This document shows, in pieces, positions 6,669 to 35,353 of a stretch of DNA of 35,353 nt; position 1 is the stretch's first letter; each line of letters opens with the position of its first letter. The position numbers were made by a program, and so were the translations under genes. The notes beneath the pieces are model-generated. The model saw only the letters and a program-made list of their open reading frames with translations, did no database searches and was not told where the DNA came from. The stretch comes from a virus: positions 1 through 35,353 of IMG/VR virus record IMGVR_UViG_3300033145_000526. One strand, written 5' to 3'.

Positions 6669-7769
6669 TTAACCATTAATAACACTTAAAGCATTTATCA
6701 TTTGCTCAGGAACAACCAATACTCTTTCAGCAATGTTTTCCATAATCTTCTTTGAATTAAGATTGGTTTCAACGCTGGTAAATCTAGTAAGAGTAAGAAA
6801 CAGTTGCCAGCTAGTCATATTCCAAGGAGTTGGAGTAGCTGGTGTTTCTGCATCCGGATCAGTAGCAAGGAGTTCATTTGAAATCATTTCCCTTCTTTTC
6901 TTGCCTGCTTTGGTTTCAATAATATCCAAAACTTTCATCATATCAGATTCTGTAATCTGATTATTGAAATTCTCAGTAATCATATCAACAATGTTAGCAC
7001 CAAAGATTGTAACATACTCGCCAAATGCTGCTTCAAGTTCAGTTGAGGAACCTGTTAAATGTATCTGTTTAATCTTACCAAACTTTTCAGTACAAAAGGA
7101 ACTTGAAAGAACATCTGACTCAGCAATATACATACCAAATACAATTGTTGAAGCACCAGTACCATCATAAGAATTGGTAATATTCATCATGGGTGATACA
7201 GTTCCAACGCCAGGAACAACACTGGGATTATTAATAACAATTTCATGTCTGATCTTTGTAAGGTTCGGAGCAATGAAATTTCTTTCAATAAGTTCAGCAT
7301 TGCCTACTGAAGTAATGGATTCTTTAATCTGATCAATCAGGGTTGCATTACCAAGAAATTTGTATGAGTTAGAAATAAAGTTTTGATATTTCCACTCTGC
7401 ATCATCTTCAAGACTTTTGGTAAAGATTGCAAGATGAGAAATTTCTTCATCATCAATAATACCAGAATCACCAAGAGTTTTGAGATTCTTATAAACAATT
7501 TCACTAAATTGATCTCTGTAATAATAAGAGCCTGGAGCAAGAATAGCAAGACCCATTTCAATAGCACGATCACCAAAAGTAGGTTTTAAAGGTTCTTCCT
7601 CATTAATTGTTTCAGTTGTCTCAGTTGTTGTTTCTTCATCGGTATCAGCAATATTATTAAAACCGTCTAAATTACCGTTTGCTTCAACATTTGCTTCAAC
7701 ATTTGCTTCAACAGATCCTTCAATTTCACTTGTATCTTCTTTAATAATTTCATTTAAATTATCGTTCAT
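6669..7769 (-). CDS. Unknown, probably abundant virion protein
   Basis: This 366-residue protein is not recognised. Its first ~65 residues are acidic low complexity, with three copies of VEAN and a Thr/Glu-rich run. The remaining ~300 residues look folded. The start resembles that of the gene at 21413-22186 (MNDNLxxII followed by an acidic linker). Its DNA uses visibly more G and C at third positions than most neighbours (also seen at 8148-9521 and 23031-24182), as in highly expressed genes. It has a strong terminator right after it, so it may be a one- to few-gene transcript. A structural protein, perhaps with a removable N-terminus, is an inference. Confidence 0.6.
   Translation of the reverse strand: MNDNLNEIIKEDTSEIEGSVEANVEANVEANGNLDGFNNIADTDEETTTETTETINEEEPLKPTFGDRAIEMGLAILAPGSYYYRDQFSEIVYKNLKTLGDSGIIDDEEISHLAIFTKSLEDDAEWKYQNFISNSYKFLGNATLIDQIKESITSVGNAELIERNFIAPNLTKIRHEIVINNPSVVPGVGTVSPMMNITNSYDGTGASTIVFGMYIAESDVLSSSFCTEKFGKIKQIHLTGSSTELEAAFGEYVTIFGANIVDMITENFNNQITESDMMKVLDIIETKAGKKRREMISNELLATDPDAETPATPTPWNMTSWQLFLTLTRFTSVETNLNSKKIMENIAERVLVVPEQMINALSVING
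7681..7713 (-). repeat. Tandem 12-base repeat coding VEAN
   Basis: GCTTCAACATTT occurs twice in tandem and a third time with a changed end (GCTTCAACAGAT). On the minus strand it encodes the repeated Val-Glu-Ala-Asn inside the acidic linker of the 6669-7769 gene. Copy number is likely to vary between isolates. Confidence 0.85.
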
Positions 7770-10638: not shown

Positions 10639-10806
10639 TTAATCCTTTTTATTAAATTTATCATAAATTTCTTTTGGCCAAGATGCTGAATCTCTAATTA
10701 GTTTAATTGCTTTTTCTGCAACTTTACCAGTATCATCTTTAGCAATTTTTACTCCTAATCCTATAGTAAAATATATTGATACTAAGGTCACTAATCCTGT
10801 AAACAT
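10639..10806 (-). CDS. Small membrane protein, 55 residues
   Basis: ATG at 10806 is preceded by AAAGGAG at good spacing. The 55-residue product starts MFTGLVTLVSIYFTIGLG, a single hydrophobic helix, and then becomes basic and amphipathic up to a TAA at 10639. The next gene starts 4 bases later. The ribosome site, the tight spacing and the composition support a real gene. Function is unknown. Confidence 0.65.
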   Translation of the reverse strand: MFTGLVTLVSIYFTIGLGVKIAKDDTGKVAEKAIKLIRDSASWPKEIYDKFNKKD

Positions 10807-10817
10807 AACATTCTCCT

Positions 10818-11276
10818 TTAATTATCCATCCAACATTCTTCAATTCGAGAAAGTTCATCAGGATTAATATTCATACCTATTAATTTAAACTTATCACAAA
10901 TTTCTTGTTTAAATTCTTTTAATGTTTGATCTTCTTTTATACTAAAAGGAGATTTACCAATCATAACTACATCTTCATCAAGTATATTTTGGAGTTCCAA
11001 TCCATCTAAACAACCTTCAACTAACCATACAAAGTCATCATTAATAAATTCTTCATATTCTTTCTCTAATTTTTCTTTGCTATCTTTAGATGGTACTGTC
11101 ATAAAAGCACCTTGTCTCATAGCTTTTTTATGTTTCTTTTTATCTTCCTTTTGTTTATAAATTTTAAATATATTCTGCCCATACTTTTCTTTTAATGTAT
11201 CTGTATCAATACTGACCCCCCAAGCAACAAAACTACAACTGCTTGAGTTTGTAATAAAATCTAATTTTCTTTTCAT
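10818..11276 (-). CDS. NSSS-motif small protein, paralogue 2
   Basis: 152 residues starting MKRKLDFITNSSSCSFVAWG. The middle is strongly basic (KQKEDKKKHKKAMRQ, about residues 41-55). The C-terminal half is acidic and ends in ECWMDN. As in the other copies, likeness to paralogues is confined to the N-terminal ~20 residues. The gene abuts 11284-11661 (7-base gap) and is followed by the small membrane protein. Function is unknown. Confidence 0.8.
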   Translation of the reverse strand: MKRKLDFITNSSSCSFVAWGVSIDTDTLKEKYGQNIFKIYKQKEDKKKHKKAMRQGAFMTVPSKDSKEKLEKEYEEFINDDFVWLVEGCLDGLELQNILDEDVVMIGKSPFSIKEDQTLKEFKQEICDKFKLIGMNINPDELSRIEECWMDN

Positions 11277-11283
11277 AAATTAC

Positions 11284-11661
11284 CTATAATCTTATTTTTG
11301 ATTCAGCTAATTGCTTTTTACCATAATCACTAACATTAGCTGAATCTATTAATATTTCAATATAATCATTATCTAAAACAAAATCTGTTTCAAATAAGTG
11401 AGCAGTTATTTGTGGACAAAATATCATTCTACTTTTAATACCAGAAATCATAGCTGCATCTACACTTAATCCAACTGCTTTTACTGCTTCTTTTTTTGAA
11501 GTTTTAAAGAGTTTATTATTAACCATATTCATTGCTAAATCAGCACTTTCTCTTTCATTGGTTGTCCATCTATAAGTAAAATCTTTTTTAAGAACAGGTT
11601 TCATATCTTCACCTTGAGATAGCTCAACACCAAATAAAGTATAGTATTTAAACTCATCCAT
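11284..11661 (-). CDS. Unknown small protein among NSSS genes
   Basis: 125 residues beginning MDEFKYYTLFGVELSQGED. It lacks the NSSS signature despite lying between two genes that have it. The protein is soluble and mixed alpha/beta, with no cysteine cluster or nucleotide-binding motif visible. The ATG at 11661 follows a GGAGG ribosome site. Not recognised. Confidence 0.65.
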   Translation of the reverse strand: MDEFKYYTLFGVELSQGEDMKPVLKKDFTYRWTTNERESADLAMNMVNNKLFKTSKKEAVKAVGLSVDAAMISGIKSRMIFCPQITAHLFETDFVLDNDYIEILIDSANVSDYGKKQLAESKIRL

Positions 11662-11691
11662 TTATATGTTCCTCCATATCAAAATAAATTC

Positions 11692-12255
11692 TTAATGCTG
11701 GGTTTCAATCATAACCATAAAATCTTTTTGATTAAGATTGATACTTCTACCTGAATAGTCCATAGTCATTCCTATTCTACCACCTTGAATCATACCATCA
11801 TTGTCACCAAAAGAAACTTCAACATAATGATCAAGCTTATTATGTATTGCTTTCTTAATTTTAATGATTTTTTCTTTTGATTCTTTTATATATTCTTTTG
11901 TATACTCAGATGATTTCCAATGAATGTTTTCTTCCGAGTCTCCCTTTAATTCGTCTATAAGAGTTTTTTCAAATTCTTTTAATTCACCTTCATACCTTTC
12001 AAGAAGATCAGTTAGTTTGAGAGGTCCAGGTAAATACCATGGGTCTTCTCTAGTTGATGATAGAATGGGATCCAATTCTCTAATAATATCCCATACATCT
12101 ATATAATCTTCACCGCCACCATATTCATTATATAATTTAAATTTATCTTCATACTTAACCATCTGCCTAAAGAGATCAGTTCTTTTATCTCCTTTGAATA
12201 GAAAAACAAATCCTGTACTAGAACTATTAGTTACAAAATCGTGTTTAATTTTCAT
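11692..12255 (-). CDS. NSSS-motif small protein, paralogue 3
   Basis: 187 residues, the longest of the six, starting MKIKHDFVTNSSSTGFVFLF. A Lys/Glu-rich helical stretch spans about residues 88-140, and the end contains 'VEVSFGDNDGMIQGGRIGMTMD'. The start codon directly follows the stop of paralogue 4, and AAGGATG serves as the ribosome site, so translation is likely coupled. Function is unknown. Confidence 0.8.
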   Translation of the reverse strand: MKIKHDFVTNSSSTGFVFLFKGDKRTDLFRQMVKYEDKFKLYNEYGGGEDYIDVWDIIRELDPILSSTREDPWYLPGPLKLTDLLERYEGELKEFEKTLIDELKGDSEENIHWKSSEYTKEYIKESKEKIIKIKKAIHNKLDHYVEVSFGDNDGMIQGGRIGMTMDYSGRSINLNQKDFMVMIETQH

Positions 12256-16340: not shown

Positions 16341-18521
16341 TTATCCCTTTACATTAATAAATGGTTTAACATAATCAACCACATCAATCACAATTCCTTC
16401 TTGAGCTTTAATAACTTTTTTAAGATTCTTATATGCTCCATGAGACTCATCTATTGTTGACTTATCAACTTTAGCTATAATTCCTTCCATCCAATGTTTA
16501 TGATCACTAAGTTTAATCATTTTCTTTGCTTTTGTTCTACTCATTTTACGACCTGCTCCATGAGAAGCTGAGCAAAGAAATTCTTCATTACCAAGACCTT
16601 TAGTAATATATACTCCTGACTTCATTGTTCCAGGAATTACACCAAGAGTTCCTTTCTCTGCTGGAGTTGCTCCTTTTCTATGAAGGACTCCATCATCTCT
16701 AACAATTGCATGATTATGATTTTCATTAATAACACCATGAAGAAAATCTTCAATCTGTAATCCTTTATAACCAAGAACTTTAAGAACATCTGTCATCATA
16801 AACATTCTATTATATAAAGCATAATTCAAAGCAAAGTCTAAATCTTCTTTATATGCTTTACCCATATCACTATCTAATCTAAAGAATCCATTAGGTAAAT
16901 CCTTATCTTCTATTTTAGATTTATTCATATAATATTGTGCAATTGAATGTCCTATATTTCTTGAACCAGAATGAATAGTAGCAACTATAAATCCATCCTC
17001 ATTCTCACCAAGTTCAATAAAATGATTGCCTGATCCTAAACTAGATAATTGTATATATAATTTGGAATTAACCTTTTTATTTAAATCTTTATTACCAGAT
17101 GCAGATTTAAATTCATCATATGGTAATGGGTATTTTCTACCAATACCTAATCCAACAGGTACTACTTTATATATTTCATTAAATATTTTTTCTCTTTTTC
17201 TCCGATTAAATGTATTTGCTGGAGTATCAGTTACTACACAACACATACCGCAATTATGCACAAATATTCCAGCTGAAATAGCAAAATTATGATATGTATT
17301 GACAGTTAAACAATATACATCTTCAGTATAATCAAGTTCTATTATTTCTTTTATTTTATGATTACTACTAAATCGATCATCTTTTATATATTCATCAAAA
17401 TTATTATAACCTAATTCTTTAATAATCTTTAAAGATTTATTATATAAAGGATAATTATAAAATTGTTTTCTAGTAATTTCATAATTTTCTTTTGTTATTT
17501 TTTTAAAATTTTTAATACATTTGTTTAAAAGTTTATTAATTCTACCTAACTTTTGTTGAATAATTAATTGTTTGTTTGAATTATTTTTAGAAAAGAATTT
17601 ACCTCCTCTAATACCATTTTGAGTAACAATTTCTTTAAAATATTCTGGATTATTACTCATATATTCTTTAATATTTTTAATTGCTATATTTTTTTTTATT
17701 GGTTTAAATTTTGGATCAAAGAAATATCCTCTTTCTAAAATAGTTTTTCTTTTCTTTTCCTTAAAATCATCAGTTGCAAAATAATTTCTATCAAGTCCAT
17801 GTAATTTACAATGTTCTATTTTATCAATAAACTGTAGATTATAAGGAAAGTTGTTTAATTTATTTTTATCTTTATGATGAATTTGTATACTATTTTTAAA
17901 ATTAGGAATATCCCCCAATAAACCAGATTCAGCAACTATCCATGAAGTTGGTCTAATTTTACTTGTTCCATGTACTCCTAGATATTCATAACCGTCTCTA
18001 TCTAAATATCTATGAAATGGAAATATAGAATTTTTATTATTTAAATCATAAACTTTAGTATAAGATATAGCATTAATATTTAATAATTCATGGTCTGGAG
18101 TGCATATAAATTCTTTATCATTATCTAATATTACTTTAACTAGTTTTGCATTTTTTCTTGTAAGTTTAACTTCATCAGCAATTCCTATTTTATGATCGCC
18201 ATTTTCATCAATAGAATATACAGGAAAGTTTTTAATTTTTTTATCATATAATTCTTTTAATAAATAGTCTTTTCCATCAAGTAATGGTATTTTTGTTGAT
18301 CCTATGAAGCAACCAATATCATAACCAACATACTCAGGAGATATAACATTATCAAGTAGTGCAACTCCGCCAATTGGTAATGTATAACCCATATGAACAT
18401 CAGGCATAATAGCTAAAACTTTTAGAAAATCCAATTCTAAGTTAGCATATATTTGTGTCTGAGCTGACTGCTCAATTTCATGTATTGGAATTAAACTTTT
18501 TAATTTTTCTAAACTAGCCAT
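16341..18521 (-). CDS. rtcB: RtcB-type RNA ligase precursor containing an intein
   Basis: The 726-residue product splits into RtcB residues 1-70, an intein (71-423) and RtcB 424-726. The mature ligase would have 373 residues, slightly shorter than E. coli RtcB. RtcB joins 2',3'-cyclic-phosphate or 3'-phosphate RNA ends to 5'-OH ends using GTP and Mn. Visible motifs are 'MPDVHMGYTLPIGG', 'DIG/CGMC' (metal-binding Cys at the junction), 'HSGSRNIGH', 'ENHNHAIV', 'HRKGATPA', 'PGTMKSG' and 'SHGAGRKMSR' with the His that accepts GMP. It overlaps 18521-18841 by one base. In a phage it would repair tRNAs cut by host nucleases. Confidence 0.95.
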   Translation of the reverse strand: MASLEKLKSLIPIHEIEQSAQTQIYANLELDFLKVLAIMPDVHMGYTLPIGGVALLDNVISPEYVGYDIGCFIGSTKIPLLDGKDYLLKELYDKKIKNFPVYSIDENGDHKIGIADEVKLTRKNAKLVKVILDNDKEFICTPDHELLNINAISYTKVYDLNNKNSIFPFHRYLDRDGYEYLGVHGTSKIRPTSWIVAESGLLGDIPNFKNSIQIHHKDKNKLNNFPYNLQFIDKIEHCKLHGLDRNYFATDDFKEKKRKTILERGYFFDPKFKPIKKNIAIKNIKEYMSNNPEYFKEIVTQNGIRGGKFFSKNNSNKQLIIQQKLGRINKLLNKCIKNFKKITKENYEITRKQFYNYPLYNKSLKIIKELGYNNFDEYIKDDRFSSNHKIKEIIELDYTEDVYCLTVNTYHNFAISAGIFVHNCGMCCVVTDTPANTFNRRKREKIFNEIYKVVPVGLGIGRKYPLPYDEFKSASGNKDLNKKVNSKLYIQLSSLGSGNHFIELGENEDGFIVATIHSGSRNIGHSIAQYYMNKSKIEDKDLPNGFFRLDSDMGKAYKEDLDFALNYALYNRMFMMTDVLKVLGYKGLQIEDFLHGVINENHNHAIVRDDGVLHRKGATPAEKGTLGVIPGTMKSGVYITKGLGNEEFLCSASHGAGRKMSRTKAKKMIKLSDHKHWMEGIIAKVDKSTIDESHGAYKNLKKVIKAQEGIVIDVVDYVKPFINVKG
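17253..18311 (-). mobile_element. Intein with HNH domain, inserted in RtcB
   Basis: A 353-residue in-frame insert. It begins with Cys71 (CFIGSTKIPLLDG), has a block-B-like 'CTPDHELLNI', and ends with 'VYCLTVNTYHNFAISAGIFVHN' followed by Cys, the normal C-terminal splicing signature (His-Asn/Cys). The middle carries an HNH-type nuclease motif, 'IQIHHKDKNKLNNFPYNLQ' with a later His-Cys-x-x-His. Removal restores 'VGYDIG' joined to 'CGMCCV', the conserved RtcB active-site loop. Inteins at this RtcB site are known in archaea. All splicing residues look present, so it should be active. Confidence 0.93.
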
Positions 18522-26706: not shown

Positions 26707-29700
26707 TTATCTTTTAAGACCTAACGCAGTTAAATTAGCATTAAGAAGTTTAACTGATTCCGGCACTACAGAATCTTCTTCATCCTCAACTTTTCCTAAA
26801 TCTGAATCTAATGCATCTCTTATAAATTTATTTTTTAAATCAATACAGTCAGACTTAGTTGTTAAAAATTCTCTTAAATTTAAGTTAGCATCATGACCAA
26901 TTAAAGCAGCTGTTTCCATTTCTCCACATCTTTGACCACCCTTATTTTTACGACCAGCTAAAGGTTGTAAAGTCTTTCTAGCATATGAACCAATACCTCT
27001 TGCCGCTAACCTGGTCTCAGAGATATGAACCATCTTAAAAAAATATTCATATCCACATGCTATTTGTTGATTAATCATTTGATTAGATTGAGGATCAAAA
27101 ACATCATATTTAAATTTAGTTTCTGTATACTTTAATGCTTCTCTAATCTTAGCCATATTAACAGATTCAAATGGAGGTTGAATAATTGAAAGATCATCAA
27201 TCCATTTATCATCAATTACATCTGGCAAATCATTTACAAATTGTTCATAATACCAGCCTTCTTCAGTTTTATCAACTATAGCAATATATCCAGCAACATA
27301 ATCTTTAACTAAAGCTTGAATTTGAGTGTCATTAAAATCTTTTAAAGATGGAATATCTTTATTGATAATTCTTTTCATATATTGTTTAAGATCATATAAA
27401 GACATACTTAAATGTAATTCAAACAACTGACCAATATTCATCCTTGAAATAGTTCCTAAAGGATTAACAATAATATCAGCATGTCTTCCATCTGGTAACA
27501 TAGGCATTTTTTCATGCTCAATTATTGTAGAAATAACACCTTTATTTCCATGTCTATTTCCAACCTTATCCCCAATCTGTATTGGTCTAAAAAAGATTCC
27601 AATTAACTCTACTCTAATTCCTGGTATTTCTTCTCCTTTCATTTTAAATTTACCAACATTACTAAACAAGTCTAAATTATTTTGTTTAATAAAAGGTTTA
27701 ACTTGTTCTTTCTCAAGATTTTCTTCAATGATAATTTTAATTTTTAATTCATTATCTTCTTGAGATTTAATTATACTTTTAATCCATTCATCATACTCAG
27801 GGATACTACTGCTCCATTGATTAACATAAATATTAACTTCAGTTATAATAACATCTTGTTTGGAAATCTTTTCTTGTTCTTCTTTAAATATATCAAAGAA
27901 ATCCATTTGTTGACTTGGGAATTCTTTTAAAATTGCATATGGTTGTCCTTTAGCAATTCTATCTCCTACATTTGGTATTGGTTTATAATCACCAGAGTTA
28001 TCTAATGTTAACAACACTTTAGATATTGGAATATCATAAGACATATCTTCAAAATGCACAGAAGTAAATAATCCTTCTTTCTGCACTCTATCAGATATAA
28101 TAATTCCATCCTCATAGTTATAACCATAATAAACCATCACACAAGTTAAAAGGTTTTTGCCAATATTAATACTACCATCCTTACAAAAATTACTTTCAGC
28201 AAGGATATCTCCAGCATTAAATGTATCACCCTGTTTAACATATATATTAAATACATCAAGATTTGAAATATAGATTTTTCTGTATGCAACATTAAAGATT
28301 TCAATTGTTTTATCATCATACAGAGCGATTATATAATTATTATCAAGATGTATAACTTTTCCTGATTTTTTAGCAATTTTTACAAACTGTGTATATTTAG
28401 TATATAGATTTTCACAACCAGATTTAATCATTGGTTGATCAAAATTTTGTAACATAATTGCTTGTCTTGTCTGTGAAGACGCCATTTGCAACCTGGTTTG
28501 ATCATCATGTTCAAGAAATGGAACTAATGATACAGGTATTGAAATAGGCTGTTTTTTTAAATAATGTTCATTAAACCTTCCATTAGCATCTAAAGGAACA
28601 TTAGGTATAAGATTTTGAAGCACTCCACAGTTATCTCTATCTGGTGTGTCAACAGGACATAACCTCCCAAACATGGAAGGCATGATATCCCTTAAATGCT
28701 CAGGTACATTTTGTCTATTAAATCCACCAGGTCCAACCAAACTTGTTCTGCTTAATTTTGTTAATTCATCAATTGGATTAATAGCAAAGTCAAATTGAAC
28801 AATATCTGAAACATTACACTCAGATACTATTTGTGCTGAATTAACATTAAACTTTGGTTGTCTTGCTGTTCTATTTGACATACACATATCAAATATTGCT
28901 TTGGATACTTTTGCTAACACTACATATTCAAAACATCTAATTCTTTTATTTGTTAAGTCAGTATCATCAAGATCTCCACCATTCAACACATGAACAATTT
29001 CTTCAATGATACTATCCTTTTCAAAAAACTCAGCAGATATTGGATCAACTTTTAAAATTAAATCCAAAGAATATATAATATCTTCTCCTTTAACTTTTGC
29101 ATTAAATTTTGAATAATTTCTTCCAATTTCTTTAATGATATCATCTTGAGTTAAACCTCTTGATTCATCATAAAAACATTTTAAATCATATATTAATTTA
29201 TCATATAGAGTTGATTCAAGAGTCATAATAGGAGTATCAACCATATCTGATAAACCAAATCTATCATTGGTTTCATCAATTCCATAATATCCAAATATAA
29301 TTAAAAACAATGGAACTTTTCTTCCTAACAAACTAATGTAAATATATGGTGCTTCCTTCTGAGGAAATATCATCAAGGTTGCAACATTTGTTCTTATTTT
29401 AATACTTTTTCCTCTTGTAACAACAGGAATATCAAATAGCTGAAACAAAGGTATTTTTTGTCTCCCATTTATAACAATATAATTATCATTAACTAATGTG
29501 GGTATTTGCATTGTTAAGTCAATTTTAGATGTACCTTTCATAAATCTAATAATTAGATTTTTCTTTATGGTTTTATTTATTTCTCCATTAGAAAATCTAG
29601 GCTCCTTTAATCTATATTCAATTAGATCAAATCCTAATTCTTCTGCTGGGATCAGTATTTTCCTTATATTTTCCAAAAGAGCAGCATACTCTTGTTGTCT

Positions 29701-29760
29701 AATATTGAAAATATGATTATTAGTATCGCCAACCTTATATATTGGATTTTCTATAGTCAA
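26707..29760 (-). CDS. RNA polymerase beta-subunit-like protein
   Basis: 1017 residues, TTG start at 29760 after AAGGAG. It is a phage-type RpoB homologue in one chain. Landmarks in order: 'RTSLVGPGGFNRQNVPEHLRDI' and 'GRLCPVDTPDRDNCG' (the rifampicin-region/fork segments); 'VMVYYGYNYEDGIIISDRV' (flap-side barrel); 'IQIGDKVGNRHGNKGVIST' (active-site lysines); 'FKMVHISETRLAARGIGSY'; and 'RKNKGGQRCGEMETAALIGHDA' near the C-terminus. It is shorter than bacterial RpoB (~1150-1350), mainly through missing lobe insertions. With 30562-33294 it would form a phage RNA polymerase core for its own promoters. No alpha, omega or sigma homologue is visible here. The order is beta' then beta, reverse of bacteria. 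Confidence 0.93.
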   Translation of the reverse strand: MTIENPIYKVGDTNNHIFNIRQQEYAALLENIRKILIPAEELGFDLIEYRLKEPRFSNGEINKTIKKNLIIRFMKGTSKIDLTMQIPTLVNDNYIVINGRQKIPLFQLFDIPVVTRGKSIKIRTNVATLMIFPQKEAPYIYISLLGRKVPLFLIIFGYYGIDETNDRFGLSDMVDTPIMTLESTLYDKLIYDLKCFYDESRGLTQDDIIKEIGRNYSKFNAKVKGEDIIYSLDLILKVDPISAEFFEKDSIIEEIVHVLNGGDLDDTDLTNKRIRCFEYVVLAKVSKAIFDMCMSNRTARQPKFNVNSAQIVSECNVSDIVQFDFAINPIDELTKLSRTSLVGPGGFNRQNVPEHLRDIMPSMFGRLCPVDTPDRDNCGVLQNLIPNVPLDANGRFNEHYLKKQPISIPVSLVPFLEHDDQTRLQMASSQTRQAIMLQNFDQPMIKSGCENLYTKYTQFVKIAKKSGKVIHLDNNYIIALYDDKTIEIFNVAYRKIYISNLDVFNIYVKQGDTFNAGDILAESNFCKDGSINIGKNLLTCVMVYYGYNYEDGIIISDRVQKEGLFTSVHFEDMSYDIPISKVLLTLDNSGDYKPIPNVGDRIAKGQPYAILKEFPSQQMDFFDIFKEEQEKISKQDVIITEVNIYVNQWSSSIPEYDEWIKSIIKSQEDNELKIKIIIEENLEKEQVKPFIKQNNLDLFSNVGKFKMKGEEIPGIRVELIGIFFRPIQIGDKVGNRHGNKGVISTIIEHEKMPMLPDGRHADIIVNPLGTISRMNIGQLFELHLSMSLYDLKQYMKRIINKDIPSLKDFNDTQIQALVKDYVAGYIAIVDKTEEGWYYEQFVNDLPDVIDDKWIDDLSIIQPPFESVNMAKIREALKYTETKFKYDVFDPQSNQMINQQIACGYEYFFKMVHISETRLAARGIGSYARKTLQPLAGRKNKGGQRCGEMETAALIGHDANLNLREFLTTKSDCIDLKNKFIRDALDSDLGKVEDEEDSVVPESVKLLNANLTALGLKR

Positions 29761-29778: not shown

Positions 29779-30561
29779 TTATATTTTATATCGTTGATAT
29801 AAAATAGCTTTATACCAAGATTTGTGCCACATTCTTTCATAATTAGCTATTACATTACATGAATTACATAATGTAATTAGATTATTTCTTTCACAATTTT
29901 CTTTGTTATAATCAATATGATGTATAACAATTATATTACTTTTTTTATTACAACATGGATTTAAACAACTATAATTATCTCTAAACTTAATAGATTCTTT
30001 AAAATCCATATTTGACCATAATTCACAATAAGGTAAATTTTGTATTCCGCCTTTCCAATTTGGATTGCCAGACCCACTTAAATTAATTGATTGTTGGATA
30101 TATTGACATTCTGGACATTCAGCACCAGCTGTAAATATATCCCATCTCATATTAAAAACATGTCCAAATATACATTGAAGTTTAATTTTACCAATGCAAG
30201 GTGAATATTCTTTAGTAAAACATTTATAACCTCTTTTTTTAGAAAATTGTTTAACCTTTTCAATATTCCAGTAAGTTATATTATTACACTCAGGGCAACT
30301 CCCTCCTGTATTTAAATTATTATAATTAGTAATATAATTATGTCCATTTTTACATTTTAAAATTAATTTAGATAATTCATTTTTATATTTACCGCTAATC
30401 CATTCATAACCTTTTGATTCTAAAAAAGTTTTAACATCTATATCACTTCTTCTATGATGTTGATTAGGGCATTTTTGTCTATTATACTCACATGTCCATT
30501 TTGGGTTTCCTTTCCTGGGTGGATATTTAGCTTCTTTACCACACCCATACTCACATTTCAT
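29779..30561 (-). CDS. HNH homing endonuclease between the RNA polymerase genes
   Basis: 260 residues. The N-terminal zinc knuckle (CEYGCGKEAKYPPR ... CPN) resembles the one in the 14048-14767 endonuclease. Two repeats with 'LKCKNGHNYITNYNN' and 'LQCIFGHVFNMRWD', each followed by a Cys-Pro-x-Cys, look like zinc-ribbon DNA-binding modules. The C-terminal HNH domain has 'CLNPCC', 'VIHHIDYNKENCERNN' and 'TLCNSCNVI'. The ATG follows the beta' stop without a base between, and no ribosome site of its own is evident, so translation would be coupled. It sits 18 bases before the beta gene. No intron core fits; free-standing homing gene. Confidence 0.85.
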   Translation of the reverse strand: MKCEYGCGKEAKYPPRKGNPKWTCEYNRQKCPNQHHRRSDIDVKTFLESKGYEWISGKYKNELSKLILKCKNGHNYITNYNNLNTGGSCPECNNITYWNIEKVKQFSKKRGYKCFTKEYSPCIGKIKLQCIFGHVFNMRWDIFTAGAECPECQYIQQSINLSGSGNPNWKGGIQNLPYCELWSNMDFKESIKFRDNYSCLNPCCNKKSNIIVIHHIDYNKENCERNNLITLCNSCNVIANYERMWHKSWYKAILYQRYKI

Positions 30562-33294
30562 TTATATTTCCTCACCGCATAAGATTTTATCCATAACACC
30601 ATGATATAATCCTGAGTCAAGAATACCTCTAATTATATGTTTCTTTGGATTTGAAAATGCTAAACCCATTAACCAACTTTCATTGCTAGGAACTGTCTGC
30701 ACGCTCAAATACTTTGGAACATTATTTTGTCTATTTTTAATTAATCTCCATTTTTTATTATTAAACCACATTAACTGAGATACAACACATTCAAAATGTA
30801 CATGATGTATTGTTCTACTAGTATTATAACAAGTATATAATTGAGAAACTAAGTTTTCTGGTGTAGTTCCTTTTGGAAATTTATGAAGAAGTTTAGATAC
30901 TGTTGATAAATCAGCTACAATATCTTGTTGTTTCATTTCTTTATCATCTGATCCATCCTCATTTTTATGAAGAACAGCAACACCAGATGTATGGAACGTG
31001 CGCAGAACTAATTGAGTATTACATTCACCCAAGCTTTGAGCTGCTATAACACCTACAAATTTACTATCCAACATTTTATGTAACTCACCATAACAAGTAG
31101 TACAAACTTTTGGATTCTTACAATATATTGGACTTCTAACATTAACTACTTCTCCTACATAACCAAGATAATTATACTCAGTCATTTTAATAAGAGAACC
31201 ATTTTCCATAAACCATTTGCCAATTAATAGTTTAGCTTTTTTCTCATTATCAACATATACTTGTAATAGATCAGTGGTACCACAATCTTCTACATCCTTA
31301 TCAATTTGAAGATTAGCGCAAGTAAATATTAATTTTCTAGATAGATATCCAGATGTTCCAGTATTTAAAGCAACATCAAGTAATCCTTTTCTACTACCAT
31401 AAGTTGAATTAAAAAATTCCTTTGGAGTAAGACCATTTATAAAACTATGTTTAATAGGTTCTTCAATAATTTGTCCTCTAAAGTTTGAAATAAAACCTCT
31501 AGTCAAAACTATTTGTCTAACCTGATCCCAACTGCCTCTAGCTCCAGATTCAACCATATAAGCATAATTAAAATTATTTCTAAGGTATTGAGTAGTTTCT
31601 TCCTTAGATACCATATCCAATTGCTCTCTGATATTATCACTTTCATATAAGGAATCTCTTTTTTCAAGACATCCATCAATAAAACATTCATCCAATGATA
31701 ATGTAGCTCCAAATAATGTTGAATATTTAAACCCTAAAAATTTAACTTTGTCCAATACTTCAGCAGTAATTTCATTTGAATATCTATTATTAACATCTGT
31801 CAGATAGTATTTAATTTCTTTACTACCAATTTCTTTGTCAATTACTGGGTAATCTTCTGGAAAACAATCATTTAGTAATTTACGATCTGCTTTAATTATC
31901 TTACCTTTACATTCAATATCATTTTGTAAATTATCAAATATTTTATGTGTAACAGCATATATTCCTAAAATAATATCTTGACTTGGAGTTGTTGATAAAC
32001 TACCATTAGAAGGATTAGTAAGATTTCTTATAACAAGCAATCTATCTAATATTTCTTGTTTAGTCTCTTCACTAATTGGAACATATACAGCCATTTGATC
32101 TCCATCAAAATCTGCATTAAATGGAGGGCAAGATAATGGATGAATCTTTATAACTTTGTCTAAATTAACTTTTGTTTTATATCCAAGAAGACTCAACCTA
32201 TGTAATGAAGGTTGTCTGTTTAATAAACACACTTCATCTTTAGCTATTTCTTCACAAGTATTAAATAAAACTGGATTATTAATTTCAATGCACTTATCAA
32301 TAAAATCAATAGCATTGTTAATCTTTTTAAATCTACCCAGCTCAATAATTTTCTTTGCTATTTTTAACTTAAATAACTCAAGAAACATTAGATAAGGAAG
32401 AGAACAATATTCCATACTCAATGTAGGATCTGGAACAATTACTGCTCTACCAGAGAAATCAATTCTTTTTCCTAAAATATTTCCACGAATTAACCCTTCT
32501 TTCTTAGACATTTTCTCAAGAATATATGCATATAATTCATTAACATCTTTTTGTAATTGTCTATAATAGTTATAAAATAAATTTCTATCAACTCTCGCAT
32601 CAACAATTGTTTCTCTCATTGCTTCTTTTTTAGTTAATATTTGAGTATAATATCTATTAATTTTATCAGATGATACTTGACCTTTTTTACTAATCTTTTT
32701 TGAAGCTGGTCTTAAATCAGGCGGAAGAACAATAACCTGATTTATTATTAATTGATCAATATTTTCTTTTATAATATCCCAAATTGTATCTCCAATTGAA
32801 ATTTGAGTATCAGCTAAATCTTCAACTAATACTCTAATAGCTTCAGTACCAACCAAAGAATTTCTATCTATATTTTCTGGATCTTGTTTTGTAACTTCCC
32901 ACCCTTCACTTCCATCTTCATATTCTTCATGAGTTAAAATACTATTTTCATCTTTCATTAATTTATCTATTGCTTCCTTAATCTTACGACCTCCCAAATC
33001 AACCAATAGATCATAAAATAAAGGATTAACAACTCCAATTGGAAGTAATATCTTAGCAAATCTTTTTCTTCTAACATTGCTATTAACAACATCAACTCCA
33101 CAAGTAACGCATGTACCACCAGAACCTGAAATTCCATAATAAGTTCCGCATTGACAAGTATAATTCTTTTCTGGTCCAAATATCTGCTCAGAAAACAACC
33201 CTTCCGGATGGGGTTGTTTTTTATTTAGATGTTTGGTTGTTGTGATTTCTTTTAAGTCCTCACAAAATTCTTCAAAATTTAATAATGTAGGCAT
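30562..33294 (-). CDS. RNA polymerase beta'-subunit-like protein, compact form
   Basis: 910 residues, far shorter than bacterial RpoC (~1200-1400), yet complete in order. An N-terminal zinc site (C47, C49, C62, C65) comes first, then 'GNILGKRIDFSGRAVIVPDP' (switch/rudder side). The catalytic loop 'NADFDGDQM' (residues 393-401) has all three Asp. The bridge-helix region 'ALNTGTSGYLSRKLIF' follows, then the trigger loop 'AAQSLGECNTQLVLRTFHTSG'. The end 'GLAFSNPKKHIIRGILDSG' matches the final bacterial helices. In the trigger helix, GEPGTQL is changed to GECNTQL. Large lineage insertions are missing. Catalytic residues look intact. Confidence 0.93.
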   Translation of the reverse strand: MPTLLNFEEFCEDLKEITTTKHLNKKQPHPEGLFSEQIFGPEKNYTCQCGTYYGISGSGGTCVTCGVDVVNSNVRRKRFAKILLPIGVVNPLFYDLLVDLGGRKIKEAIDKLMKDENSILTHEEYEDGSEGWEVTKQDPENIDRNSLVGTEAIRVLVEDLADTQISIGDTIWDIIKENIDQLIINQVIVLPPDLRPASKKISKKGQVSSDKINRYYTQILTKKEAMRETIVDARVDRNLFYNYYRQLQKDVNELYAYILEKMSKKEGLIRGNILGKRIDFSGRAVIVPDPTLSMEYCSLPYLMFLELFKLKIAKKIIELGRFKKINNAIDFIDKCIEINNPVLFNTCEEIAKDEVCLLNRQPSLHRLSLLGYKTKVNLDKVIKIHPLSCPPFNADFDGDQMAVYVPISEETKQEILDRLLVIRNLTNPSNGSLSTTPSQDIILGIYAVTHKIFDNLQNDIECKGKIIKADRKLLNDCFPEDYPVIDKEIGSKEIKYYLTDVNNRYSNEITAEVLDKVKFLGFKYSTLFGATLSLDECFIDGCLEKRDSLYESDNIREQLDMVSKEETTQYLRNNFNYAYMVESGARGSWDQVRQIVLTRGFISNFRGQIIEEPIKHSFINGLTPKEFFNSTYGSRKGLLDVALNTGTSGYLSRKLIFTCANLQIDKDVEDCGTTDLLQVYVDNEKKAKLLIGKWFMENGSLIKMTEYNYLGYVGEVVNVRSPIYCKNPKVCTTCYGELHKMLDSKFVGVIAAQSLGECNTQLVLRTFHTSGVAVLHKNEDGSDDKEMKQQDIVADLSTVSKLLHKFPKGTTPENLVSQLYTCYNTSRTIHHVHFECVVSQLMWFNNKKWRLIKNRQNNVPKYLSVQTVPSNESWLMGLAFSNPKKHIIRGILDSGLYHGVMDKILCGEEI

Positions 33295-33296
33295 TA

Positions 33297-33701
33297 TTAT
33301 TCCTTTTCTTTAAAGTTTTTAATTACAAATTCTGCTAAAGCAACTAAATGTTTCTTAATCTCCTTTGATATTTTTTTATTAAAATCTGGCATTAATTTTA
33401 ACATTATTTTACTAACCAAATCTTCTATTTCATTTTGTTGAACATAAGAACCATTATGTATAGATTCTACTTGCTGTTCGAGTTCACTCATATCAATATT
33501 ACTTTCTACAATATTTGCAAAATCATTCGCTATATCTTCAACCTCAACAAGTCTTTTATTGATTTGTTTTACATTTTTTTCAATACCAATCAATACATCT
33601 CTCTGAATATCAAACGCTTCAACGATTTTTGATTTGACTAGTTGTTTATCAATTAATTTTATAAATTCTTTTTTCACTTCTTCACTAAACATATCACTCA
33701 T
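33297..33701 (-). CDS. Coiled-coil protein upstream of RNA polymerase genes
   Basis: 134 residues, acidic and almost fully helical. Heptad Ile, Leu and Val are seen at about residues 30-75 ('IGIEKNVKQINKRLVEVEDI') and again near the C-terminus. There is no nucleotide-binding or zinc motif. It is packed directly between the E1-like gene and beta' (2-base gap to beta'). A structural or polymerase-accessory role is only inferred from position. Confidence 0.6.
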   Translation of the reverse strand: MSDMFSEEVKKEFIKLIDKQLVKSKIVEAFDIQRDVLIGIEKNVKQINKRLVEVEDIANDFANIVESNIDMSELEQQVESIHNGSYVQQNEIEDLVSKIMLKLMPDFNKKISKEIKKHLVALAEFVIKNFKEKE

Positions 33702-34586
33702 TTAAGCCCCTCCTGTTTCTGGTAACAATTCAATATAAACTTCATCATAGTTTAATTCATTTAATCTTAAAGTATATGATTCATAGTTTAAGTTTAAATT
33801 TCTGGTTATTTCACTAATCTTTGTTACTGCAGTATTAAAAGATGTAATTTCATATTTTTTAAATTTTTGAATAACTTGACCATCCTTATCCTGTCCAACT
33901 ATCAATATTAAATCTTTAGTTGTATTAGCTTTAACAATAGAAGGTAAACATTCATAGAAATTTTTAATCTTTTCATCCCCTTTACAATAATCAATTACCA
34001 TATCAGGTTTGCTATCAAATTCTTTAATAGATTTTAAAATTTCTTTGTTTGCAGAGTTAATTGGTATTTGGTGAGTTATTTGTTTCCTTATTAAATCTTT
34101 TATCTCATCACTGTAAATCATTTGTGTAGCAATTATAGAAGCAGCTGCTAAATCTATATTTCGTAAATTGTGTATATATCTTCCATTAGATTGCCTACTA
34201 ACTTTAATATTTTTCTTAGAATCAATAATTAACATATTAAAAGAAATATATAATCTAACATCAATGTTATTATTTCTAGAACATATAATATCACGACAAT
34301 CCACAACTAAATCTACATTTGGTGTTACTACTTTATTATCAATATATTCAATTGGGTGAGTTATTATATTTAATTCATCACTATTATGTTTGATAATATT
34401 TTTTAATGCCTCAACTTTAAATTTACCAATATCATTCTTTCTATAAATAGATCTACCTATATTTCTATCTTCTACTATATCAGGATCAATTAGTATCAAA
34501 GATTGTAAACCGTCCATTCTAGAAATATTCTCAGCGAAGAATCCTCCAAGGGATCCTAATCCAATTATTACAATACTTTTATACAT
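33702..34586 (-). CDS. E1/ThiF-family adenylating enzyme-like protein
   Basis: 294 residues. The Rossmann ATP site 'IVIIGLGSLGGFFAENIS' (residues 5-22), the acidic strand end 'LILIDPDIVEDRNIGR' (Asp34/36, Asn42, Arg45) and 'DIGKFKVEALKNII' (Lys55/57) are the ThiF/E1 signatures. 'VDLVVDCRDI' (about 90-99) continues the fold. Such enzymes adenylate the C-terminal Gly of a ubiquitin-like protein. The CxxC pair that binds zinc in ThiF and MoeB is not visible. The protein ends ETGGA. Upstream lie a helical unknown and a ubiquitin-like gene whose tail is AGSKG. It may activate that protein for conjugation, or for sulfur transfer. Confidence 0.85.
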   Translation of the reverse strand: MYKSIVIIGLGSLGGFFAENISRMDGLQSLILIDPDIVEDRNIGRSIYRKNDIGKFKVEALKNIIKHNSDELNIITHPIEYIDNKVVTPNVDLVVDCRDIICSRNNNIDVRLYISFNMLIIDSKKNIKVSRQSNGRYIHNLRNIDLAAASIIATQMIYSDEIKDLIRKQITHQIPINSANKEILKSIKEFDSKPDMVIDYCKGDEKIKNFYECLPSIVKANTTKDLILIVGQDKDGQVIQKFKKYEITSFNTAVTKISEITRNLNLNYESYTLRLNELNYDEVYIELLPETGGA

Positions 34587-34628
34587 ATCATTTCTTAAAT
34601 CCTTTTATATATTAGTTTAAAACTTAAA

Positions 34629-35156
34629 TCAAGCGATTTTATATCCATAACCTATTATGGAAGATATTGCTGTTGAATAATCCATAGGAATAAATGGTTT
34701 TATAATTTTAAATTCTTTTAACTCTCCATTTTCAACCATTTGTTTTCCAATATCATCCATAGTATTTAATAAAGATTTAATTTCTTTCATAAATGTGTAA
34801 GCTTTACCATATATTTCAATATTAATATTTTTATATGGATGATGAAAAACATTTGATATGTGTTGATTACATATAGGAGAAATGATTTTATATAATTTAT
34901 CAATATAACACGTTACACGATTTGCTACTCTTTTATATTCATTAACATTTGGAATATGATTAATATATTCTATTAATACTTTTAATAATTCCTCAAAATT
35001 ATGTTTTGGAATATGTTTACTAATATGATAAATAGTATTCTTCCATCTTTCATCAATCTCATTTTTATCTATTTTAAATAATTTAACCACTTTACCATCA
35101 ACTTCTGCCATATAACTTTTATCATCTTCTGATATTATTTTTATAGTATCATTCAT
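34629..35156 (-). CDS. Helical unknown between E1-like and ubiquitin-like genes
   Basis: 175 residues starting MNDTIKIISEDDKSYMAEVD. An N-terminal ~30-residue beta portion is followed by helices. Five residues after 'RVTCYIDKLYKII' comes a His/Cys-bearing stretch 'CNQHISNVFHHPYKNIN'. No E2 (UBC) or JAB/MPN motif is seen, so a catalytic role in conjugation is not shown. It could be a target, adaptor or an unrelated passenger. The 68-base gap before it holds a strong hairpin. Not recognised. Confidence 0.6.
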   Translation of the reverse strand: MNDTIKIISEDDKSYMAEVDGKVVKLFKIDKNEIDERWKNTIYHISKHIPKHNFEELLKVLIEYINHIPNVNEYKRVANRVTCYIDKLYKIISPICNQHISNVFHHPYKNINIEIYGKAYTFMKEIKSLLNTMDDIGKQMVENGELKEFKIIKPFIPMDYSTAISSIIGYGYKIA

Positions 35157-35172
35157 TATTTTATATCCTTTT

Positions 35173-35208
35173 AAATAAGGGGTAAGGACTAATCCCTACC
35201 CCTTATTT
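35173..35208 (-). terminator. Strong hairpin after the ubiquitin-like gene
   Basis: AAATAAGGGGTA and TACCCCTTATTT pair over 12 bp, with three further pairs (GGA/TCC) after one mismatch and a 4-base loop. T-runs are short on both strands (TTATTT). It lies between the stop at 35225 and the gene starting at 35156, so it probably attenuates readthrough. Confidence 0.65.
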
Positions 35209-35224
35209 TAATCAAAAACTACGA

Positions 35225-35353
35225 CTATCCTTTAGACCCAGCAGGTTTGATAAACTCAAGAACATCTCCTTCTTTAAGAACATAAGAAGAATCAACACCT
35301 TTACAAGCAACCTGACCCTCGGCAAGACGATCAATATTCAGAACTTCTTTAAG
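35225..35353 (-). CDS. Ubiquitin-like (ThiS/PRTRC-C-like) protein, C-terminal end only
   Basis: Only the last 42 codons are in the window; the frame runs off the right edge. The end 'YVLKEGDVLEFIKPAGSKG' has the beta-grasp pattern of ThiS/MoaD (Leu-Lys-x-Gly-Asp-x-Leu-x-Phe) and an Ala-Gly-Ser-Lys-Gly tail. That tail is close to the Gly-Thr-Lys-Gly end of the PRTRC system protein C. A C-terminal Gly is what E1/ThiF enzymes activate, and such an enzyme is coded at 33702-34586. Codon use is less AT-biased than its neighbours. The length and full domain set, single or multiple ubiquitin folds, cannot be judged. Confidence 0.65.
   Translation of the reverse strand, partial: LKEVLNIDRLAEGQVACKGVDSSYVLKEGDVLEFIKPAGSKG

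Follow-up and report, generated by a model that had tools for sequence, protein, structure and literature searches.

A phage ubiquitin-like protein tail and a second E1-like enzyme beside RNA polymerase genes: the probable downstream half of a 6d/PRTRC-type conjugation cassette

The right end of the 35,353-base virus fragment analysed here (IMG/VR record IMGVR_UViG_3300033145_000526, positions 1-35,353; hereafter the window) probably carries the downstream half of a phage cassette for conjugation and deconjugation of a ubiquitin-like protein (UBL), built on the 6d/PRTRC type and with a second E1/E2 arm added. The cassette belongs to a lineage of large uncultured phages, and the window shows only the UBL tail and the second E1. 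The second E1 (E1b) and an E2-like protein with an HPN motif and a downstream cysteine (the HPN protein) are absent from the related bacterial loci.

Almost all genes of the window lie on the minus strand, and they encode among others a terminase, an RtcB ligase and the beta' and beta subunits of RNA polymerase. Read in gene direction, the right end holds the UBL tail, a 175-aa protein, E1b, a 134-aa protein, RpoC, an HNH endonuclease and RpoB. The UBL gene (35225-35353(-)) starts beyond the contig end, and its last 42 codons read LKEVLNIDRLAEGQVACKGVDSSYVLKEGDVLEFIKPAGSKG, with a stop after them, so that the protein ends in FIKPAGSKG. The 175-aa protein between UBL and E1b (34629-35156(-)) has relatives in 13 other viral loci and lacks an E2 or JAB match, as the first-pass annotation of this DNA had claimed, nor does it match any Pfam or NCBIfam family over cut-off; its gene is conserved in the nearest relatives only, and in other contigs that place is taken by another small gene. 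E1b (294 aa, 33702-34586(-)) is followed by a small, helical-looking protein of 134 aa (33297-33701(-)), of which about 55 relatives have a shorter homologue, always immediately before RpoC. The location beside phage RNA polymerase genes that had been noted for these genes is correct: the RpoC-like beta' subunit (30562-33294(-)) matches PHROGs RNA polymerase families (E = 2e-36), and the RpoB-like beta subunit (26707-29760(-), a 1017-aa ORF), which belongs to the context, has a like protein after RpoC in locus L082. Between rpoC and rpoB stands a free-standing HNH endonuclease gene (29779-30561(-); PHROG 559, E = 5e-17, and a weak IscB match), likely a homing endonuclease. The match to the RtcB tRNA-splicing ligase (726 aa, 16341-18521(-)) falls into two stretches, and aa 207-260 match HNH, which suggests an intein or other insertion.

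That E1b is a ThiF/E1-type adenylating enzyme, as its motifs had indicated, was borne out. The protein matches Pfam ThiF (PF00899) with E = 1e-15 and 58 bits (cut-off 28.1 bits), its profile matches the structures of MoeB, ThiF and UBA3, and its AlphaFold model (pLDDT 93.7) finds only E1-like folds among its top Foldseek matches (Cap2, MccB, UBA5 and ThiF), Cap2 being the best. In an alignment with 46 relatives the glycine loop (G9, G11 and G14), D34, K57 and D96 do not vary, and R45 of the window protein aligns with an arginine of MoeB that we take to contact ATP. The ThiF-type nucleotide-binding domain is followed by a C-terminal strand-strand-helix-strand-strand domain (aa about 210-294), and beyond the nucleotide domain no cysteine is conserved in the same alignment. 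We also considered the C-terminal domain as a paralogue of the UBL and rejected this, as profile comparison found no detectable homology. The C-terminal tail is strongly conserved, ETGAA being the commonest form and ETGGA and VTGGA occurring too; the window (33702-33959(-)) has ETGGA. In locus L226 a 409-aa frame (10727-11956) has a Rho_N-type start that runs into E1b, which may reflect a fusion of UBL with E1b or else a frameshift from sequencing.

With E1b as query no match was found in GenBank phages, nor in a single-sequence scan of IMG/VR, and relatives were therefore sought through RpoC, which served as the anchor and of which 80 viral relatives were kept. A second set, of 80 viral loci that overlaps the RpoC-derived one, came from a scan with E1a, the E1-like protein of the core. 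Ahead of RpoC, 64 of 80 viral loci have the order JAB - E1a - UBL - small gene - E1b - HPN protein - small gene - RpoC, the small genes not being detected in every locus of the 64. A profile search places an E2 family-D protein (E2-D, about 850 aa) directly upstream of JAB in 62 phage loci, and the full order E2D-JAB-E1a-UBL-E1b-HPN-RpoC is present in 59 of the 80 viral loci of the E1a scan. Neighbouring genes overlap or are separated by short gaps (medians of -7.5 bases for JAB-E1a and -1 for E1b-HPN). Since this order is repeated in dozens of divergent contigs, chance is excluded. The close relative L002, whose RpoC is 85% identical to that of the window, carries E2-D, JAB, E1a and the HPN protein. 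Extension past the contig end by means of the relatives thus shows a full UBL, E2-D, JAB and a cysteine-bearing E1a, and by analogy E2-D, JAB and E1a would lie beyond the contig end in the window phage as well. The first-pass annotation had proposed E1-only conjugation or sulfur transfer for the set; this was an artefact of the contig end, as the relatives have E2-D, JAB, the cysteine-bearing E1a and the HPN protein.

The tail AGSKG had been taken for the end of a beta-grasp-like UBL, and as the end of a UBL it holds up. Over 60 viral contigs encode full-length proteins that it matches (best E = 2.8e-36), and the Lys-Gly end is invariant in 41 aligned relatives. The typical length of complete relatives is about 155 aa; a linker joins a Rho_N/SAP-type N-terminal domain, found in 34 of the 41 members, to a C-terminal domain that resembles ThiS/TGS. 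A bacterial orthologue in L114 scores over the ThiS cut-off (28.9 bits) whereas the phage UBLs by themselves stay under it, and for TIGR03738 (PRTRC_C) no match to the UBL was seen. Some UBLs have one or a few residues past the glycine, that of L044 has a long C-terminal extension after the tail, and L057 encodes a tandem UBL of 319 aa with an internal GRKG (6744-7703), an arrangement like that of polyubiquitin; in such forms a protease would be needed to expose the glycine. Extra genes upstream of E2D in L007, L008, L013 and L037, at first candidates for further UBLs, encode small Rho_N-only proteins and were discarded as second UBLs. With a Rho_N/SAP-type domain fused to it, the UBL would probably confer on its targets a surface related to nucleic acids or transcription, and the Rho_N-type domain and the RNA polymerase neighbourhood together suggest a link of the cassette to transcription or nucleic acids.

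The upstream proteins of the cassette retain the residues expected of their families. Prok-JAB is matched by all 36 JAB members, their metal-binding residues H130, H132, S140 and D143 are invariant, and the best PDB matches, and closest solved relatives, are the deubiquitinase Rpn11; the L012 JAB matches TIGR03735 (PRTRC_A) with E = 1.1e-11 and 44.7 bits, under the cut-off of 101.8. E1a matches PRTRC_ThiF (TIGR03736; best E = 1.5e-14, under the equivalog cut-off) and MoeB in 36 of 36 members, keeps the nucleotide residues and has an invariant Cys171. Cys178 of E2-D is present in 58/58 phage and 53/53 bacterial members; the protein matches PF14460 under cut-off (E = 5e-4), and its profile matches proteins annotated as 'prokaryotic E2 ligase family D'. 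These findings bear on the possibility that the UBL is a ThiS/MoaD-like sulfur carrier which is thiocarboxylated for cofactor synthesis or tRNA thiolation, the E1 proteins serving to adenylate only. Such a role would suit the likeness of the phage UBLs to ThiS/TGS and that of E1b to ThiF and MoeB. However, a JAB peptidase and two cysteine-bearing E2-like proteins share the operon, the UBL bears a Rho_N-type domain, and in reading the cassettes we met no gene for rhodanese, cysteine synthase, ThiG or MoaE; we consider a sulfur carrier improbable.

What, then, is the partner of E1b? E1b is found almost only together with the HPN protein, whose His56 and downstream Cys67 are present in 47 of 47 members. 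Both of the top two PDB profile matches of the HPN protein are E2 enzymes, aligned at HPN...CL, at E values that are not significant (0.52 and 1.8). Its model (pLDDT 96.7) likewise has E2s among the top Foldseek matches, none of them significant (best E2 E = 0.26), and a comparison of its profile with three eukaryotic E2s, represented by approximate sequences, was weak (19% probability). We therefore call the protein E2-like rather than a proven E2. Among the correlations of pairwise distances, that of E1b with the HPN protein is the strongest (0.82), followed by RpoC/E1a (0.81) and UBL/E1a (0.77), whereas E1b/E1a reaches 0.61 and UBL/E1b 0.54, though UBL and E1b are near neighbours. The E1b/HPN value suggests that these two proteins work together, although adjacent genes may also co-vary through being inherited together. 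E1b is a second, phage-specific E1-like protein and not the obvious UBL partner. The earlier proposal that the phage activates its own UBL stands insofar as the phage UBL comes with E1-like enzymes of its own, but the one visible in the window is not the evident activator.

A different division of labour would unite E1a and E1b in a single heterodimeric E1, like UBA3-NAE1 or UBA2-SAE1, with the catalytic cysteine coming from E1a and an E2-recruiting C-terminal domain from E1b. Two ThiF-type proteins in one operon would fit such an enzyme, all the more as E1a is short and bears the cysteine while E1b has the strand-strand-helix-strand-strand domain and, outside the nucleotide domain, lacks a conserved catalytic cysteine. 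Yet E1b retains D34, K57 and D96, unlike the inactive subunits of eukaryotic E1s, and co-varies more with the HPN protein than with E1a. We regard the heterodimer, which would be a special form of the cassette model, as possible, if rather unlikely.

The window has no HPN gene at the usual position between E1b and the 134-aa gene, and neither a remnant nor a moved copy was found within the 35,353-base fragment by six-frame HMM search and tblastn. In no other contig examined was E1b seen to adjoin the small gene ahead of rpoC directly, and E1b of the window phage may thus be without an HPN partner. An apparent loss of HPN in L226, L239 and L240 was rejected, as divergent proteins are present there; in L239 the protein has the HPN...C motif, and in L226 and L240 the resemblance is only partial.

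The kinship with the PRTRC kind that the first-pass annotation had put forward was confirmed at the level of homology. In operon type 6d, described by Iyer et al. 2006 (PMC1779556), genes for a UBL, JAB, an E1-like protein and E2 family D stand together as they do in the phage cassette, and an example of this type is formed by the PRTRC genes A, B, C and ThiF on plasmid C of Trichormus variabilis (L162), whose products match phage JAB (1e-7), E1a (1e-24) and E2-D (3e-12). Beyond 6d/PRTRC, the phage cassette has E1b, the HPN protein, the Rho_N-type domain on the UBL, an E2-D of about 850 aa and adjoining RNA polymerase genes. PRTRC_D gave no match in 10 large phage records, in a search that matched nothing in the controls either, and for a PRTRC ParB one weak ParB-type match in one record was the nearest to a convincing hit; we therefore speak of a 6d-like and not of a full PRTRC cassette. 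The same E2D-JAB-E1a-UBL core, often in the same order, occurs in chromosomal and mobile loci of Methylomirabilota, Chloroflexi, Patescibacteria and others (L084-L161), where by profile search the bacterial and archaeal MAG loci lack the phage E1b and HPN protein; phage E1a forms a clade apart from bacterial E1a (67/70, support 0.92). A cultured Bacillus phage, vB_BauM_KLEB27-3, encodes a PRTRC_A-type JAB, a ThiF and an E2-D homologue (gp194-196, OM634661), with no E1b or HPN gene detected. Our literature search, which left most subscription journals outside its coverage, found neither a paper that names this phage nor an account of a phage cassette of this kind, and no biochemistry on the 6d/PRTRC type; a term search of a 2021 jumbo phage survey (PMC7824862) did not turn up such a cassette either.

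Related enzymes are used by host antiphage systems, Bil and type II CBASS (Cap2), which have in common with the phage cassette the logic of E1, E2 and JAB and a conjugated protein tail, but whose E1 and E2 are fused or otherwise arranged and which lack a second E1 like E1b (PMC10097602). They are host defence systems, whereas the present cassette consists of phage genes. This relationship, together with Cap2 as the top fold match of E1b, might speak for UBL and E1b acting against host UBL defence of the CBASS/Bil type, as mere decoys or inhibitors with no conjugation of their own. A decoy would have no need of a complete E2/JAB set, however, and the active-site residues are strictly kept though RpoC differs by up to half across the lineage, which makes a purely counter-defensive role very unlikely in our judgement.

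Returning to the conjugation cassette, from the gene set and order, the conserved active-site residues and the structure models we infer the following chemistry, partners and targets. JAB would trim any extension past the Lys-Gly of the UBL, whose glycine E1a would adenylate and then hold as a thioester on Cys171. From there the UBL would be moved to Cys178 of the E2-D protein and on to target proteins, from which JAB could take it off again. E1b would likewise be an adenylating protein and would act together with the HPN protein, whether in a second arm of activation or as a partner subunit of E1a. More speculatively, and in our view unlikely as a whole, this could amount to a two-arm phage UBL system of two E1s and two E2s that, in the course of infection, puts the Rho_N-bearing tag on RNA polymerase or on further transcription proteins of host or phage. 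If the cassette is active, phages would encode a complete UBL cascade of E1, E2 and JAB instead of being attacked with one. E1b and the HPN protein would then be prokaryotic parts nearer to eukaryotic arrangements than the 6d core, and the uncharacterised 6d/PRTRC systems would gain a model that is compact and testable.

Two very large viral contigs, L229 (527,112 bases) and L243 (458,813 bases), have the E2D-JAB-E1a-UBL core with no adjacent E1b or HPN gene. L082 and L083 are binned as archaea and look like contigs of the cassette's phage lineage; in L082 the core is followed by E1b, the HPN protein and RpoC.
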